DNA from: Opitutia bacterium
Lineage (GTDB): Bacteria > Verrucomicrobiota > Verrucomicrobiia > Opitutales > Seribacteraceae
NCBI GenBank assembly: GCA_002716045.1
Contig: PAZC01000014.1
Location: 36,750-100,749, forward strand
Length of the DNA: 64,000 bases
Direction: 5' to 3'
The translations under genes were made by a program, and so were the position numbers. Under the pieces are notes generated by a model. The model searched no databases and was not told where the DNA came from. It worked only from the letters and a program-made list of their open reading frames with translations. Shown here piece after piece: positions 53,800-62,940 of this stretch (its first letter is position 1; each line of letters starts with the position of its first letter).

Positions 53800-56700
53800 T
53801 TGAAGAGAAACTCTACGAAATTGATTGCTTGGCAGCGCATTCTCCTAGCCCTTGCCCTTGTATTGCCAGGCTCGTTGTCAGGAGAGGCAATGCTCCAATA
53901 TTTCAACACCAGTTGGACGGAAATAACGAGGCGGATGCCTGAATTGGCGGAAGCAGGATATAGTTCGCTTTGGTTGCCACCACCCACCAAGGGCAGTGGT
54001 GGTCTGTCCGTCGGATACGATCTTTGGGACCCTTTCGACCTGGGTGGCAAGGAGCAACGAGGCACATTCAACACGCGATATGGCACAGAGGCTGAACTTC
54101 ATCGCCTGATTGAAACGGCCCACAGATTCGGGATTCGGGTGTACTTCGACAACATCATGAATCATCGAGCCTTCGACGTGCCTGGATACAACGACTTCGC
54201 TCCACCCGACATATATCCCGGCATGCGACCGGAGGATTTTCACATTCGCCGGACAGAGGATGGTTATTACCGCAAGTGGGACAATGTAAGGGAATGGTGG
54301 AGTGAATGGCAGGTACAAAACCTGGGGCTTGCCGATTTGGTGGACATTGCCACCGAACCAGGAACAACAAATAAAAACTTTGGCGCATGGGAAGGTGCCA
54401 CCACGGAGAAAATCAAGTTTCTGCGGCATCCGGACAATCCAGAGTACTATTCGTACGATGCCAATGGAACCTATGTCGGGTTTGGCAAGAACAACGGTTT
54501 GACGAGCGAATATCTGTCACAACACGAAGCATTCTATTCCGAATACGTGGAAACTTACCTAAACCGAGCTGTGCGTTGGCTGATGGACCGCACCAAGGCA
54601 GACGGCTTGCGATTAGATGCGGTGAAACACATTCCCGCCGATTTCTTCGGAGCTACATATGGAGACGACCGTGATCGAAGCAATTACGGATATCTCGGGC
54701 AAGCACAGGAACAATTTAACCTGAGCCGGGGGTTTTCCGATTGGGGCAATCATCGCGACACCGTGTTCGACACCGAGCTTCCACGCGACGATGCCATGAT
54801 GTTCGGCGAACATCTGGGGGCGCCTCCAGGGGTGGAGGATTACATCAATTCCGGCATGCGGTTGCTAGACAATGACCTTAGGCATCACTTGAATAGCCAA
54901 CTTGGAAATCCATGGGGCACCTTGGCCGGCATGGATGCAGCAGGTAGTTATGGCTTCGCACCCGGATCTTCGGTCATGCATGCCCAAAGCCATGACAGTG
55001 AATATGCCGCCCGACGAGAACTGCAGCACGCCCTTTACCTGACGCGTGGTGGAATCGGAATCATCTATTCGGACGGCAACTACAAGGCAGGGATCCTCAA
55101 GGGAAGCGGGGGGGCTTTCCCGCGTCATGCAAACACCAACTTCCTCGGGCAATGGGGCGACAACCGCATTCCTAACCTACTCTACTTTCACGAACATTTT
55201 GCCCGTGGGTATCAAGTGGGCCGATGGAGCGATGGAGACGTGGTCATATACGAACGCGTGGACAAACGAGACAATCCTAACATGTCCGATGCAGCAGGCA
55301 CTGTTGGCTTGATAATGATTAATGACAATTACTCCAGCGGCCAGAATCGAGGTTTCACCACGGGGTTTCCCGCAGTGGGCGGAACGGACAACGACGCATA
55401 TCTCTACAATTACTCGTCCTACGGTGGAGGCTTTTACAAGTACGCCAGTCAATTGAACCAAGTGGTTATTCCCGCAGGCGGCTATTTCCTATTCTCATGG
55501 CGAAGTCCGGAATCATCGGATCTCTGGGAATTGGCAGGAGGTCACCCCTTGAGCATTATGCAGGATGGGAATCCAGTGGGAACAGTCTCAGTCAAAAGAA
55601 CCGACGGACCTGACGGTGATCCCGGCTTCAATCCCTATGGCGTGCCCGACGATGACACGAATGATTTCTCCTATTTCTGGAACGTGCCCAGGGTCACCAA
55701 CGGAACAAACCTAAAGTTCGTGGTGCGAGCCGATGGCTCGACTGAAAACGTTTTGCTCAAGCTTGACGGCGGGATAGACCTGAATGGGAACGGTCGGCGA
55801 GACAATGCTCCAGCCCTCTCCTCCGACGTTACTCTCGGATACGAGCAAATGAATTTCGTGGCTCGCCAAGGACCTGAAAAATTCGCGGCCCGGGACACCG
55901 GTCGCAATATGATCGGATCGGCTGGCGCGGAAACCTATTGGTGGCATGCCGACAATGAAACTTTTTCTACTGTTAATGGCGTGACCGGGCACGGTTCCTT
56001 TCCCAATGAAACCGCCCATTGGGTTTATCATGATCCGGAGCAAAACAACGACCAAGGCGTTAAACAGTTTAATATGGAAAACAACACAGCCACAATCTGG
56101 TTAAAGATCGGCTATCGGCTAGAGATCAACCAAGCACGCCTCTATTACACAACGGATGGAACCAATCCCGAGGGGGCTGGAGGACAAGGTCTAGGCGTAA
56201 CTCAATCCATCTCCTTCGCTTTTTCTCACTCTGATGAACAGGAGGCCACAGTGGATTGGTGGAAAGCAACGATCCAACTCCCTGAATCAGGAATTTTGAA
56301 GTACAAAATCGGCGTGTATCGCAACGAGTCAAACGGTGTGTCAGTAGCCAGTGTTTTCCCAAAAAACGAACCCTCCGTATCTCTGAAGAAAAAAATGCTC
56401 ACAATGTTTGAGTTAGATGGATTCAACGCGAAGACCATCGAATATTATCCTCACAATGACTGGGGAGACAAGGCAACCGGCCTAAAGGAAGGCTTCCATT
56501 ACCTCAAAGGGCGTGCTTTTCTGAGCCGTCTTGGACAGGCTCCCATCTACAACACCTTCACCCAAACTTTTTACTATGACACCAAGCGCCCCGAGGGTGA
56601 AGTAAGCTTTCCCGCGGCGGACGGAGAAGAATTGTTCGGTTCCGAATACGGGTTCGTGGTTCGCACCGATCCGAGTGTGACCGAGGTGTTCTTTAACATA

Positions 56701-59700
56701 CAGGACAACGATTCCTCAAATGATGACAGCCAAACCGGAGCCCTCAATGGAAATGGCGGCAACGGTGGAGGCAATGCAAGCGCTTGGGTCCAAGCCACGG
56801 AAATAACGTCCAGGCAAGACTTGGGCGCCAATTATCCAAAGGAATGGAGATTTAGTTATCGCAACGTGCCCCCGGGCGGCGGCGAGGCAACCGTGAGGAT
56901 CGCCCTGAAAGAGATATCATCATCCAATAACTTGGATCAAACGGAGGAGGAGGGACATTTTAGCCTGTTGCAACGTACCGTGAAAACCAGCGGGCCCAAC
57001 CATCGACTTTTTGCAACTTGGCCCCAAAGCGATGGTGAAAAAGTGGGACAGGACTACGTGATGAAGACCTACCTGAGCACCAGCCTCGTGGAGGGCAAAA
57101 GCGATGCCGAGGTATTGGCAAATTTAACCATCAGCGTAGATGACTCCTTGCAACAAGAGGCACCCTACCCCGCTGCCGTTGCCCTAGACTTGTCAAACGC
57201 CTGGGTCGAACGAGAGGTCGTGCCAGGATTAACTGCCTTGGCATACAAATTGCCCATCTTGCGAAATCCCGAAGGAGCACCGGATAACTTCAGCCAAACA
57301 ATAATAGTGGATTACAAGGATGAGGGAGCAGGTGTGGATCTGCGAACGTTGCGTACCGTAAAAACCGATTTCATCGACCATGGTCCGGTAAACCCGATAC
57401 TAAAGGTAAACGGCGTGAATGCGGACTACACTTCAACCCATCTCTTCATAGATGAGGTGCAAGGAAACCAAGAAGATTTGGAAATCGTCCTCGAAGCGCC
57501 GCATGTCACGGTGGCTGAAGTCTACACGAACCTGAACAATCGAGACCTTGCCACAAGCGACTCAAATGGAGATGGCATCGAGGACGGAATTCATCCACCC
57601 GATCGTGACTCCGTTTCACAAGCAAACAACAATGGGTATTACCAGGTCCATGCAATGACCTTTGATGCTTCTCGAGGCGAAGCAGGTGCCTGGGTCTGCC
57701 AACTAAAGGCCAGCAAAACGGGGGCCTATCGGATCACTGCCCGATTCAAGATACAGGATGATGCCGACGTATGGCACTGGTATACCAACGACGGGCGTCG
57801 CGATCATGCCGTCGTGGTCACTCCCATGACTGCCCAAAGCGCTATAATGTATGAGCTCAATCCGCTCTCAGTGGATGCTGCGGGAGATAGTTTCGTAACC
57901 CGTAGCACCTTCGAGGATTTACATGACCAAAATCGATGGAATCTCGACTATCTGAAAGGCATGGGGGCGAACTGGTTGTGGTTCCAACCCATACATCCCC
58001 GCGGCGAGGACGGACGAGAAAACGTTAACGGACAACCTTACGACCCAGGCAGCCCTTACGCGGTAAAAAACTTTTTCGAGGTAATGCCTCAATTGAGCAA
58101 TGCAAACACTCGATCCGGTGCGATGCAGGCCTTTCAGGATTTCGTGGCGGCGGCCGACGACAAGCAGGTCAGCATAATGATAGACGCTCCATTCAATCAC
58201 GTGGCATGGGACGTCGAACTGGATGAAAAAGGGGTGGAAATATTCGGGACTGGATCAGCCGGAGATAAAATTCGGACAATCCTGCCTGGCTTCTTTTCCA
58301 GAGCCGATGACTACGGGTCACCCGCTCGCAATGAAAACGAAATTGCGACCGCCCCCGATCGTGATGACTTTGGTAAATGGAACGACGTAAAAGACGTTTA
58401 TTTCGGCAACTACTCGGCGCTTGTTCGAGGCAATGATCCATCCGAACGCAATCCTCATCAAAACGAAGAGGACATTTTTGACTACACGGGGCCTGGTTGG
58501 AACGAACAAACCCGCAAGACTTGGAAGTATTTCGCATCCTACGCCCCTTATTGGTTGGAGAAAACTGGTTTGCCAGCGGGACAGTCAATCGAATTTCAGA
58601 CTCAAACCGGCATAGACGGTTTGCGAGCAGACTTCGGTCAAGGACTGCCACCGCAGTTATGGGAGTACGTCATAAACGTGGCCCGGGCACGCAAATGGAG
58701 CTTTGTTTTCATGTCCGAAGCCTTGGACGGAGGAGCAGTCACCTATCGCTCGAGTCGCCACTTCGACGTTCTCAACGAAAACCTGCTCTTCTCCCTGCAA
58801 TCCGCAACAAGTCCGGAAAACTACCGCCAAGCAATTGAGAACCGGCGTATCTCCTACGGCCAAAGCCTTGTCCTGCTCAATAACGTCTCCCATGACGAGG
58901 AAAATTATCAGGATCCGTGGCAAGCTTTCATACGGTACGCAACGGTTAGCGCGCATGCCGGTATACCGATGTCATTCATGGGACAGGAATTGGGTATTTC
59001 ACGAACCTATGGCTTCAATCACTACGAAACTAACTTCGGCAAGCAGGTCCCTCACTTCAAGCGCTATAATTCGATGCAACCCATTTGGGACAACAATGAC
59101 TTTGGATTGGATCAATTGTACAAAACTTACGCGAGCATCGGAAGGGCTCGCGCCACAAGCCCGGCGCTTCGGTCTTCCCATCGCTATTTTCTAAACGAAA
59201 CATCAACCAACGCGGCCCATGCAAAGATTCACGGGGTAGCCAAGTGGGACCAACCAGGGTCATCGCCCGAGACCTCGGACGTCGTCCTCGCTTTCGTCAA
59301 CCTAGATCGCGACAACCAGCAATCGGGCACTTTCGATCTAAGCCCAGATGGGAACGAGGCCTTTCTCGGCATAGAAAAGGACCATCTATACAACGTATCA
59401 AACCTAGCCTCCTTTCAGGCCGAAAAGCAAGAAGCCTTTTTGTGGGCGGAAGCTCGGACTGGCCAAGACCTTTTAGACAATGGCATATTTGTAATGCTTA
59501 ACCCCGTGCCGAATAGTGATGGCGGGTGGGCAACCGCTCCATACGAAGCGCAATTCCTCAAGTTACACGACCTCACGACACCTCGCCTGGAAGTCAATGC
59601 TTCGACGGGAGGCAGTGCTTCCGGAACCGGGAACTACGCCTTTGGAAACAACCCCATCATCCATGCCATTCCCGATGAGGGCTATGCCTTCGATAATTGG

Positions 59701-62700
59701 ACTGGAGATGGCGTAGCCAACCCGAACCTTTCTCAAACAACTGTTTCCATGACGCGATCTCGTTCGGTCACGGCTAACTTCAAAGTGAAGACGCACGAAC
59801 TGTTGCTACAGACAAATCTCGGGGGAACCACTTCGGGAGAAGGGAACTATACCTATGGTGCTCAGGTGGGTATCACCGCATCACCTGAAAGCAACTATCA
59901 TTTCATTCATTGGATAGGCGCAGGTGTGGCTGATTCCACTTCCCCAAACACAAGCGTGTCGATGACCGCGGACCGTAACCTAAGCGCAGTTTTCGAAATC
60001 GATCGTCGCACACTTACAATCAATGCAAGCGGTGGTGGTTCCGTTTCCGGAAGCGGAAACTATGAGCATGGCGCAACCGTAAACCTGACCGCCACTGCCG
60101 ATGCCGGATATCAATTCGTCAACTGGACCGGTTCTTCCGTATCAGACTCCAACTCCCCTTCCACCACCATCACGCTATCTGCGGATGCCAACGTAACGGC
60201 AAATTTCCAAGCAAACGTACATCAACTTTCGCTCAATGTCAGTGGCAGCGGTTCAGTATCTGGCTCAGGCAGTTATAACTTTGGCTCTCTTGTCACTATC
60301 CATGCCACCCCAGACAGTGGATTTTATTTCACGGGATGGTCAGGCTCTGGCACAGTGGATGCCAATTCCTCGACCACGCAGGTCGCGATGTCGGAAAATA
60401 GAACCGTAACGGCCAACTTCACGGCCATTCCCCCCAACCAGCACGTATTGCAAACATTCGCCGATCCGATGAATTCAGGTGCCACCGGAGGCGGCGGTGT
60501 CTTCAGCCAAGACACCAGCGTCAACGTTCAAGTGACTCCGGCCACAGGTTACCATTTCCTCGGATGGAGCGTATCTGGCGGATCCCTCTCCTCTCCCCTT
60601 TCAGCCACAGCTGCCATAGTGACGCTGGACCAAAACTCCGAGGCAAATGCAACTGCCCACCTCGATGCCCTGACTTTCAAACTCAAGACGGAAACTTCTT
60701 CCGGAGGATCATCCTCGGGAGAGGGGAATTTCACCTATGGTCAAAGCGTATCAATCTCAGCCACTCCGCAAAACGGTTACAGTTTCAACGGATGGACAAT
60801 CGGCGGATCGATCGACTTCAGCGTCACCTCTGCCGATCGCCAATACGATGCATCCACCAACGCATTCTATCTCGACGGCAAGGAAAGTCCGCCCCTAACC
60901 CTTGTAAGAGGTAACGTGTACTCCTTTCGACTCGATGGTGTGACCACCACCAACCATCCTTTTTATTTCAGCACGGACACAAGCGGTGGCGGTAATTCGT
61001 ACTTGGCGGAATATTTGGATGGGGTGACGAATTCGCGGAGCGTCAATGGAACAGTGAGTATAACCGTCGATGAAAATACTCCTGCCACACTATACTATTA
61101 TTGCGGTAATCATTCGGGGATGGGGAACGTACTGACCATTATCGATGGAGTTGGATTGATCGACAATGCCAACGCAACTTCAACCAATGCATGGAGCAAC
61201 GCGACTTACTCCATCAAGGCAAATTTCTCATTGGCAAACCATACGTTGACTCTGACTTCAGGAACTGGAGGAAACGTTTCCGGAAGCGGCGCCTATGCTC
61301 ATGGAACAAATGCCGCGATCACTGCAACTGCAAATGAGGGATACATCTTTTCAAGTTGGAGTGGTGGAGGCGCAGTGGATTCCAATGCCTCATCCACTAC
61401 GATAGCAATGGATGGGGACCACTCGCTAACAGCCAACTTCGAGCCTGCCATCCATCACTTGACTGTAACGAGTTCAGCGGAATCACAAGGCTCTGTGATT
61501 GGAGGGGGAAGCTTTTCCCATGGAGAAACAACCAACATCTCCGCCATCCCCGCAACCGGATACCTGTTTTCGGGCTGGAGCGGCTCGAATGTCACCGATC
61601 CAAGCGCAAGTTCCACCTCCGTCACCGTGACTTCCTCACAGAACGTAACAGCGAATTTCACACTCACTTCACACCAAGTCATAATGCAAAGCAATCCCGT
61701 GGACGCAGGCATCTTGGTCGGCGAAGGCAACTTTAGCCACGGAAGCGATGCAAACGTTTCAGCTTCTCCCAACCAAGGGTACCTTTTCTCCCATTGGTCC
61801 GGAGACGGCTTGGCAGATGAAAATTCTTCAGTAACCACAGTCGCCGTGATCGAAGATCGCAATCTCACCGCCAATTTCGAACTCGCTTCCCATCTCCTGA
61901 CAGTGACAACAAAGTCAAGCGAAGGAGGCTTTGTCACTGGAGGCGGTACATTCAGTCATGGGGCTTCGGTAACAATATCAGCAACCCCTGAGGCCGGATA
62001 CGAATTCACTCAATGGTCGGGCATGAGCATCACTGACCAAAATGCCAGTTCCACCACAGTCTCAGTGACAGAACCCCATACCGTTACTGCAAGCTTCGCC
62101 AAGGCAACTCATAACGTTACTCTCCAAAGCAATCCCTCCAACGCAGGGAACCTTTCCGGTGGAGGTTCTTATGAATATGGGGTTATCGCCGACCTAAACG
62201 CAACCCCTGCCCATGGTTATGTCTTTTCACATTGGAGCGGCATCCATGATAGCGATTTCAACGAGAGCGAACTTTCCATGACCATCCTCAAGGACATCCC
62301 CTTGACCGCGCACTTCGTCGAGCATGCCGATGCCAAGAAACTACATTACGCGCTCAATGCCACGGAACATCATGCGGGATGGCGTGAAAGCGATTGGTTC
62401 GGGTTCTTCCATCAAGTCGATGATCATTGGGCTTACCACTTTGATTTTGGCTGGATTTACGTGGACGAGGTCAGCAACGGAGCATTCTGGTATTGGCATG
62501 AAACCCTTGGTTGGTTGTGGGCAACAGAGGATGTCTATCCGGCATCCTGGAGCAAGGAAACGAACCATTGGATTCGTTTTCATGTAGATGCCACAAGCGG
62601 GAATCTGCAAACCGACAACAACGGCCAACTATGGTATTACGACTACTCCGCAACAAAGTGGAACCGAAGCTCAGCGACTAGCGAAACTTCTTCTTTCGAG

Positions 62701-62940
62701 GTAAGCGTCGCAAGCTCACCTGCCATTGGTGGCACCGTGTCTGGCGCTGGTTCGTTCGAGGAAGGCTCCACCGCGACCCTCACTGCAACACCTTCCAACG
62801 GATACAAGTTCGTCAACTGGTCAGGGGATCTCGAAGGGGATTCATCCACTCTCACCTTTACGGTTACCAAGCAACTGAACTTAACCGCTGTCTTTCAGGA
62901 AGTCTCCAGCGATCAAACGATTCAAGGATTGTTCGATTAA
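53800..62940 (+). CDS. Giant secreted protein: two GH13 alpha-amylase domains, ~12 InlB-type repeats, cupredoxin-like insertion and Trp/Tyr-rich module
   Basis: TTG start with signal peptide; GH13-I motifs DNIMNH, GLRLDAVKH, GEHLG, QSHDSE; GH13-II motifs DAPFNH, GLRADFGQG, MSEALDG, NVSHDE; repeats of the form GxxSGxGxYxHGxxVxITATPxxGYxFxxWSG...VTANF. Confidence 0.93.
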   Translation: MKRNSTKLIAWQRILLALALVLPGSLSGEAMLQYFNTSWTEITRRMPELAEAGYSSLWLPPPTKGSGGLSVGYDLWDPFDLGGKEQRGTFNTRYGTEAELHRLIETAHRFGIRVYFDNIMNHRAFDVPGYNDFAPPDIYPGMRPEDFHIRRTEDGYYRKWDNVREWWSEWQVQNLGLADLVDIATEPGTTNKNFGAWEGATTEKIKFLRHPDNPEYYSYDANGTYVGFGKNNGLTSEYLSQHEAFYSEYVETYLNRAVRWLMDRTKADGLRLDAVKHIPADFFGATYGDDRDRSNYGYLGQAQEQFNLSRGFSDWGNHRDTVFDTELPRDDAMMFGEHLGAPPGVEDYINSGMRLLDNDLRHHLNSQLGNPWGTLAGMDAAGSYGFAPGSSVMHAQSHDSEYAARRELQHALYLTRGGIGIIYSDGNYKAGILKGSGGAFPRHANTNFLGQWGDNRIPNLLYFHEHFARGYQVGRWSDGDVVIYERVDKRDNPNMSDAAGTVGLIMINDNYSSGQNRGFTTGFPAVGGTDNDAYLYNYSSYGGGFYKYASQLNQVVIPAGGYFLFSWRSPESSDLWELAGGHPLSIMQDGNPVGTVSVKRTDGPDGDPGFNPYGVPDDDTNDFSYFWNVPRVTNGTNLKFVVRADGSTENVLLKLDGGIDLNGNGRRDNAPALSSDVTLGYEQMNFVARQGPEKFAARDTGRNMIGSAGAETYWWHADNETFSTVNGVTGHGSFPNETAHWVYHDPEQNNDQGVKQFNMENNTATIWLKIGYRLEINQARLYYTTDGTNPEGAGGQGLGVTQSISFAFSHSDEQEATVDWWKATIQLPESGILKYKIGVYRNESNGVSVASVFPKNEPSVSLKKKMLTMFELDGFNAKTIEYYPHNDWGDKATGLKEGFHYLKGRAFLSRLGQAPIYNTFTQTFYYDTKRPEGEVSFPAADGEELFGSEYGFVVRTDPSVTEVFFNIQDNDSSNDDSQTGALNGNGGNGGGNASAWVQATEITSRQDLGANYPKEWRFSYRNVPPGGGEATVRIALKEISSSNNLDQTEEEGHFSLLQRTVKTSGPNHRLFATWPQSDGEKVGQDYVMKTYLSTSLVEGKSDAEVLANLTISVDDSLQQEAPYPAAVALDLSNAWVEREVVPGLTALAYKLPILRNPEGAPDNFSQTIIVDYKDEGAGVDLRTLRTVKTDFIDHGPVNPILKVNGVNADYTSTHLFIDEVQGNQEDLEIVLEAPHVTVAEVYTNLNNRDLATSDSNGDGIEDGIHPPDRDSVSQANNNGYYQVHAMTFDASRGEAGAWVCQLKASKTGAYRITARFKIQDDADVWHWYTNDGRRDHAVVVTPMTAQSAIMYELNPLSVDAAGDSFVTRSTFEDLHDQNRWNLDYLKGMGANWLWFQPIHPRGEDGRENVNGQPYDPGSPYAVKNFFEVMPQLSNANTRSGAMQAFQDFVAAADDKQVSIMIDAPFNHVAWDVELDEKGVEIFGTGSAGDKIRTILPGFFSRADDYGSPARNENEIATAPDRDDFGKWNDVKDVYFGNYSALVRGNDPSERNPHQNEEDIFDYTGPGWNEQTRKTWKYFASYAPYWLEKTGLPAGQSIEFQTQTGIDGLRADFGQGLPPQLWEYVINVARARKWSFVFMSEALDGGAVTYRSSRHFDVLNENLLFSLQSATSPENYRQAIENRRISYGQSLVLLNNVSHDEENYQDPWQAFIRYATVSAHAGIPMSFMGQELGISRTYGFNHYETNFGKQVPHFKRYNSMQPIWDNNDFGLDQLYKTYASIGRARATSPALRSSHRYFLNETSTNAAHAKIHGVAKWDQPGSSPETSDVVLAFVNLDRDNQQSGTFDLSPDGNEAFLGIEKDHLYNVSNLASFQAEKQEAFLWAEARTGQDLLDNGIFVMLNPVPNSDGGWATAPYEAQFLKLHDLTTPRLEVNASTGGSASGTGNYAFGNNPIIHAIPDEGYAFDNWTGDGVANPNLSQTTVSMTRSRSVTANFKVKTHELLLQTNLGGTTSGEGNYTYGAQVGITASPESNYHFIHWIGAGVADSTSPNTSVSMTADRNLSAVFEIDRRTLTINASGGGSVSGSGNYEHGATVNLTATADAGYQFVNWTGSSVSDSNSPSTTITLSADANVTANFQANVHQLSLNVSGSGSVSGSGSYNFGSLVTIHATPDSGFYFTGWSGSGTVDANSSTTQVAMSENRTVTANFTAIPPNQHVLQTFADPMNSGATGGGGVFSQDTSVNVQVTPATGYHFLGWSVSGGSLSSPLSATAAIVTLDQNSEANATAHLDALTFKLKTETSSGGSSSGEGNFTYGQSVSISATPQNGYSFNGWTIGGSIDFSVTSADRQYDASTNAFYLDGKESPPLTLVRGNVYSFRLDGVTTTNHPFYFSTDTSGGGNSYLAEYLDGVTNSRSVNGTVSITVDENTPATLYYYCGNHSGMGNVLTIIDGVGLIDNANATSTNAWSNATYSIKANFSLANHTLTLTSGTGGNVSGSGAYAHGTNAAITATANEGYIFSSWSGGGAVDSNASSTTIAMDGDHSLTANFEPAIHHLTVTSSAESQGSVIGGGSFSHGETTNISAIPATGYLFSGWSGSNVTDPSASSTSVTVTSSQNVTANFTLTSHQVIMQSNPVDAGILVGEGNFSHGSDANVSASPNQGYLFSHWSGDGLADENSSVTTVAVIEDRNLTANFELASHLLTVTTKSSEGGFVTGGGTFSHGASVTISATPEAGYEFTQWSGMSITDQNASSTTVSVTEPHTVTASFAKATHNVTLQSNPSNAGNLSGGGSYEYGVIADLNATPAHGYVFSHWSGIHDSDFNESELSMTILKDIPLTAHFVEHADAKKLHYALNATEHHAGWRESDWFGFFHQVDDHWAYHFDFGWIYVDEVSNGAFWYWHETLGWLWATEDVYPASWSKETNHWIRFHVDATSGNLQTDNNGQLWYYDYSATKWNRSSATSETSSFEVSVASSPAIGGTVSGAGSFEEGSTATLTATPSNGYKFVNWSGDLEGDSSTLTFTVTKQLNLTAVFQEVSSDQTIQGLFD
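59587..62322 (+). repeat. Array of 11 InlB B-repeat-like units (12th at about 62692-62910)
   Basis: Manual alignment of translated sequence; unit about 67-70 aa. Confidence 0.85.

Follow-up and report, generated by a model that had tools for sequence, protein, structure and literature searches.

A predicted cupredoxin-fold domain nested within an InlB-type repeat of a giant, probably surface-displayed verrucomicrobial protein

Sequence comparison confirms that repeat 6 in a giant open reading frame (ORF) of an Opitutia bacterium is an InlB-type repeat split by a complete domain, and structural models support a cupredoxin fold, a Greek-key β-sandwich, for the inserted domain. The ORF lies in a stretch of 64 000 nucleotides that was analysed as a whole (the window). 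Homologous sequences indicate that the nested architecture is inherited across a bacterial family. The earlier note on this DNA had described a cupredoxin-like domain spliced into the middle of an InlB-type repeat, a description borne out by the repeat spacing, by profile searches and by homologues. It had also called the topology unusual; the split repeat is real but is not an isolated oddity, since the architecture is family-wide.

The host, from a marine verrucomicrobial bacterium, is a giant starch-degrading protein that is probably displayed at the surface. From its N-terminus it comprises a signal-like segment, two GH13-type modules, a stalk of InlB B-repeats, a W-rich C-terminal domain and a final InlB repeat. 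The principal features are:

53800..62940, + strand: host ORF, 3046 aa, reading frame uninterrupted
53908..54690, + strand: first GH13/alpha-amylase-like module, core aa 37-297, matched by NCBIfam alpha-amylase models
57943..59406, + strand: second GH13-like module, from aa 1382, matched by Pfam
62338..62661, + strand: W/GW-rich C-terminal domain, 21 matches in its own genome

Pfam assigns 12 stretches of the ORF to PF18998 (divergent InlB B-repeat), alongside alpha-amylase segments (PF00128); the InlB B-repeats thus number at least 12. Residues 35-146 are matched by solved alpha-amylases, and a GlgE_C-like end of the second GH13-like module at about residue 1869 scores below the Pfam cut-off. 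The W/GW-rich domain (HHAGWRESDWFGFFHQ...FGWIYV...LGWLWATEDVYPASW) matched no family in Pfam or NCBIfam. It is shared by about 20 further ORFs of the genome, mostly large, and lies near the C-terminus in those that were read, which makes it a candidate lineage-specific sorting or anchoring domain. The N-terminal segment is hydrophobic and signal-like. Together with GH13 motifs that look intact by eye and the recurrent W-rich domain, it makes export and display outside the cell likely. The catalytic-type motifs are GLRLDAVKH/FGEH/SHDSE in the first module and GLRADF/MSEAL/SHDEE in the second (window 53800-59406).

Repeat 6 is divided as follows:

60676..60810, + strand: N-terminal half of split InlB B-repeat 6, ending GYSFNGWTIGGS (PF18998 positions 2-43, 40.5 bits)
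60793-60795, + strand: conserved Trp codon of the N-terminal half, invariant in 31 split repeats
60811..61146, + strand: inserted domain with predicted cupredoxin fold, 112 aa (IDFSV...LTIID), supported by AlphaFold2, PDB fold matches and phage homologues
61147..61227, + strand: C-terminal half of split InlB B-repeat 6, GVGLIDNANATSTNAWSNATYSIKANF, placed by profile, alignment and model strands 182-187 and 190-199

The insert had been placed at 60816-61152; it is real, and its boundaries are corrected here to 60811-61146. Nor does the repeat resume at ATYSIKANF, as had been thought. It picks up earlier, at about 61147, with GVGLIDNANATS...IKANF.

An InlB profile from the bacterium's own genome covers repeat 6 in its N-terminal half only (aa 2293-2344), and the following repeat begins at aa 2477. 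The spacing over repeat 6 is 184 residues versus 71-73 for the other repeats, and the excess of ∼ 112 residues is the length of the insert. The same sum, one repeat plus one insert, accounts for the spacing in all four split repeats of the genome (4/4). Once the insert is removed, 29 residues separate the conserved Trp from the closing A-x-F (22-29 in intact repeats). The excised repeat then fills PF18998 positions 2-71 of 73 at 46.9 bits (cut-off 23.6), compared with 40.5 bits for the N-terminal half alone. The C-terminal half of repeat 6 is divergent. Alone it has no match to PF18998 in Pfam, and when the genome's intact repeats were used to train an HMM, this half scored no better than random tails (51.9 versus 51.9 bits, random tails reaching up to 56.2). 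Homologous C-terminal halves in some relatives score 16-18 bits alone and add 14 to 16 bits once joined. Thus, the nesting of the host copy rests partly on clearer homologous copies. Among the 31 aligned split repeats the A-x-F behind the insert is at least 90% conserved, and the insertion point is the loop after the GYxFxxW strand. A frameshift or an assembly artefact was considered and dropped: the reading frame has no interruption, and the layout recurs both in paralogues from other contigs and in MAGs of separate deposition (L042-L046).

The flanking halves and the sister repeats of the host ORF are members of PF18998. Repeat 6 differs from other repeats of that family, and from the B repeat of Listeria InlB, by holding a 112-aa domain. 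The Listeria repeat is β-grasp-like, with an extended loop that replaces the helix (PMC8900821).

AlphaFold2 modelled the whole split repeat with a mean pLDDT of 93.5 and a pTM of 0.86 (31-sequence alignment of split repeats) and the insert alone with values of 94.9 and 0.87 (10-sequence alignment including phage copies). In the former model InlB strands 13-55 and 182-199 lie on either side of insert strands 57-169. Both repeat halves are modelled at pLDDT > 90, and we infer from this confidence that they would pack as one repeat. When either model was searched against the PDB with Foldseek, all 50 matches listed per search were cupredoxins or multi-cupredoxin oxidases/reductases (rusticyanin, AcoP, plastocyanin, pseudoazurin, laccases and nitrite reductases; probability 0.96-1.00). 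B-repeat structures were absent among the PDB matches listed. The superpositions are loose, with query-normalised TM values of 0.45-0.60 and, in one search, rmsd values of 6-7 Å; they therefore support the cupredoxin fold class and no particular subfamily. Among viral models (BFVD) the best named matches were marine cyanophage tail-fibre, baseplate and structural proteins, and the matches also included some giant-virus β-sandwich proteins.

Pfam and PDB sequence searches alone did not reveal this fold; it is the two high-confidence models and the PDB fold matches that sustain the cupredoxin assignment made earlier. Whether the query was the insert or a seven-row profile, PDB sequence searches gave no significant cupredoxin; plastocyanin or pseudoazurin appeared as weak matches only. 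The window insert matched no Pfam copper-binding family, and the plastocyanin model TIGR02656 scored it at 13.1 bits, below the cut-off of 87.85. The sole Pfam family to reach it is PF25489 (At5g54830-like; gathering score 27 bits), which the two copies in a sister gene, C41, pass at 38.0 bits and below which the window insert falls at 23.0 bits. Antibody and T-cell-receptor V-domain matches in the PDB sequence search (E 0.006 at best) were rejected as convergent β-sandwich motifs. They follow a GGGxxYxxxxxG...TxYYC pattern, and such sequence convergence could mislead automatic annotation of 60811-61146.

The type-1 ligand set His, Cys, His, Met (C-x2-H-x2-M) is complete in the window insert, judged from aligned positions. 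The predicted ligands, each invariant in ten aligned ligand-type copies (phage and bacterial), are:

60955..60957, + strand: predicted Cu ligand 1, His of TNHPFYF
61102..61104, + strand: predicted Cu ligand 2, Cys of YYYCGNHSGMG
61111..61113, + strand: predicted Cu ligand 3, His of YYYCGNHSGMG
61120..61122, + strand: predicted Cu ligand 4 (axial), Met of YYYCGNHSGMG

The earlier note had named these same residues, in TNHPF (His) and in YCGNHSGM (Cys, His, Met). The spacing of the last three is amicyanin-like. All four ligands are kept in 8 of the 31 aligned split repeats and two or more are lost in the other 23, for example in LYYYSGSFAGMG and LYYHGTGSAQAG; in ligand-less copies the Cys is replaced by Ser, Val, Gly or Ala. 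Both split copies in the C41 gene are without the Cys and the second His. The nested layout thus outlives the copper site and, because most split copies are without ligands, copper binding is not the general purpose of nesting. From these alignments copper appears optional across the nested modules and plausible in the window copy.

With the type-1 blue copper proteins (plastocyanin, pseudoazurin, rusticyanin, AcoP) the insert has in common the fold and the His-Cys-His-Met set. It differs from them in belonging to a giant repeat protein and in having no significant sequence relation to PDB cupredoxins. Its closest kin outside these bacteria are tail-fibre and baseplate domains of marine cyanophages and pelagiphages, a relatedness that carries no direction of transfer. 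The insert matches phrog_677 (baseplate wedge tail fiber connector, E 3.6e-12) and phrog_30742 (tail fiber, E 1.2e-10), families of a homologous domain in marine T4-like cyanophages and pelagiphages. It also matches 115 phage records in tblastn, nearly all from marine Synechococcus, Prochlorococcus, Pelagibacter and Methylophilales phages. Identities to these phage relatives are 35-45%, with 44% to a structural protein of Cyanophage S-TIM5, and a HPF...YYxCxxHxxM pattern is common to both sides, as is the fold. The likeness to marine phage modules suspected in the earlier note is thus seen in the phrog_677 match, the tblastn records and the viral fold models. Unlike the insert, the phage copies are domains of tail or baseplate proteins and are not nested in an InlB repeat; in 291-aa viral-contig proteins the cupredoxin-like domain is C-terminal.

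Three more split repeats occur in two other genes of the genome, each interrupted in the same loop. One lies in the C21 gene, whose product has a β-propeller-type N-terminus, with an insert 73% identical to that of the window; the C41 gene holds two. Matches to the insert were found in 24/24 same-family genomes searched and, in a first sample, in 0/13 genomes from other families of the order. Judged by context, the split repeat is present in at least 17 of the 24, a count in which one genome (G022) is cut by a contig end and another (G021) was checked in part; it was not seen in G002, G004, G005, G008 and G017. A wider sample of the order revealed it in a second family as well (f18; L058, L059), and the public MAGs that contain it carry the labels Opitutia, Opitutae or Opitutales. 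In a poorly resolved tree of 73 domains, a single origin of the split form is not rejected (p-AU 0.58). Most likely the split repeat arose once in a common ancestor and spread by gene duplication and shuffling, with ligands lost more than once. It provides a stable evolutionary case of a complete domain nested in a tandem repeat and kept while most copies lost their copper ligands. A literature search, most subscription papers lying outside it, found no paper reporting a cupredoxin within either InlB repeats or phage tails.

We think it reasonably probable that the insert is a side module of cupredoxin fold, carried by a surface stalk and used mainly for display or binding, with copper plausible in this copy. 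The domain would sit in the loop after the GYxFxxW strand of one β-grasp-like InlB B-repeat and project laterally from the stalk, with the repeat closing up on either side of it; nesting of this kind would require the ends of the insert to be close together. Its general job may be to offer a rigid β-sandwich surface for binding a glycan, a particle, a cell or a partner protein, a role presumed likewise for the related domains in tail-fibre and baseplate proteins of marine phages. Because most relatives lose the ligands yet keep the fold-bearing positions, the role most likely to be shared is binding or display. The window copy, with His-Cys-His-Met intact, would probably bind one copper ion in a type-1-like site, and bound copper may lend the module stability or be left over from an ancestral function in copper handling or use. 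This suggests that in giant surface-type proteins of Opitutales the cupredoxin sandwich serves mainly as a binding or display scaffold, and it links these proteins to a module common among the tail proteins of marine phages.

Were the insert instead a working type-1 copper centre at the surface, the stalk would handle redox chemistry or metal, by electron transfer or copper buffering beside the amylase. The four intact ligand positions, invariant in the ligand-type copies including those of phages, are what one would expect of such a centre, and among the matches listed the closest solved folds include electron carriers. We nevertheless regard it as unlikely, since ligands are gone from 23 of the 31 split repeats, including both copies in the sister gene C41. 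It is less probable still that nothing is inserted and that a truncated InlB repeat simply runs on into an ordinary cupredoxin domain, itself followed end to end by an unrelated linker. The C-terminal half of repeat 6 is indeed too divergent to score alone, but this arrangement is at odds with the spacing in all four split repeats of the genome, with the Pfam profile being filled by the excised repeat, with the conserved A-x-F and with the relatives' C-terminal halves, which score alone as InlB C-halves. We give similarly little credence to a neutral hitchhiker derived from a marine phage tail protein and having no function of its own. The phage relatives speak for it; against it, most genomes of an entire family retain the module, its fold-bearing positions conserved, and standalone secreted-looking forms occur in other Verrucomicrobiota, so that kinship gives no direction of transfer.

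Returning to the side module for display or binding, we speculate, as a long shot, that a copper-loaded nested cupredoxin makes the stalk responsive to copper or redox state, with metal occupancy altering the stability of the repeat or its binding surface. If so, attachment or enzyme presentation by a marine polysaccharide degrader would depend on copper, and relatives without ligands would be fixed, metal-free versions.

Cupredoxin-like domains related to the insert also occur outside split repeats. In the same genome one copy is un-nested, in the C9 giant, and a degenerate copy lies in a 332-aa protein. Most genomes of the family encode, in an open frame of ∼ 280-330 aa, a protein whose cupredoxin-like domain, at about aa 150-260, is degenerate (L006, L027, L032-L036). 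Insert matches were found in 10/286 genomes of the class and 9/388 of the phylum, its own genome included, and those copies whose context was read lie in small secreted-looking or other non-InlB proteins. In L082, L083 and L074 several cupredoxin-like domains form tandem arrays within giant ORFs (2024 and 12157 aa), with the ligands mostly kept (FYFCTNHSxM). In L071, L072 and L073 the domain is at or near the C-terminus, and the preceding sequence is fasciclin (FAS1)-like by eye.
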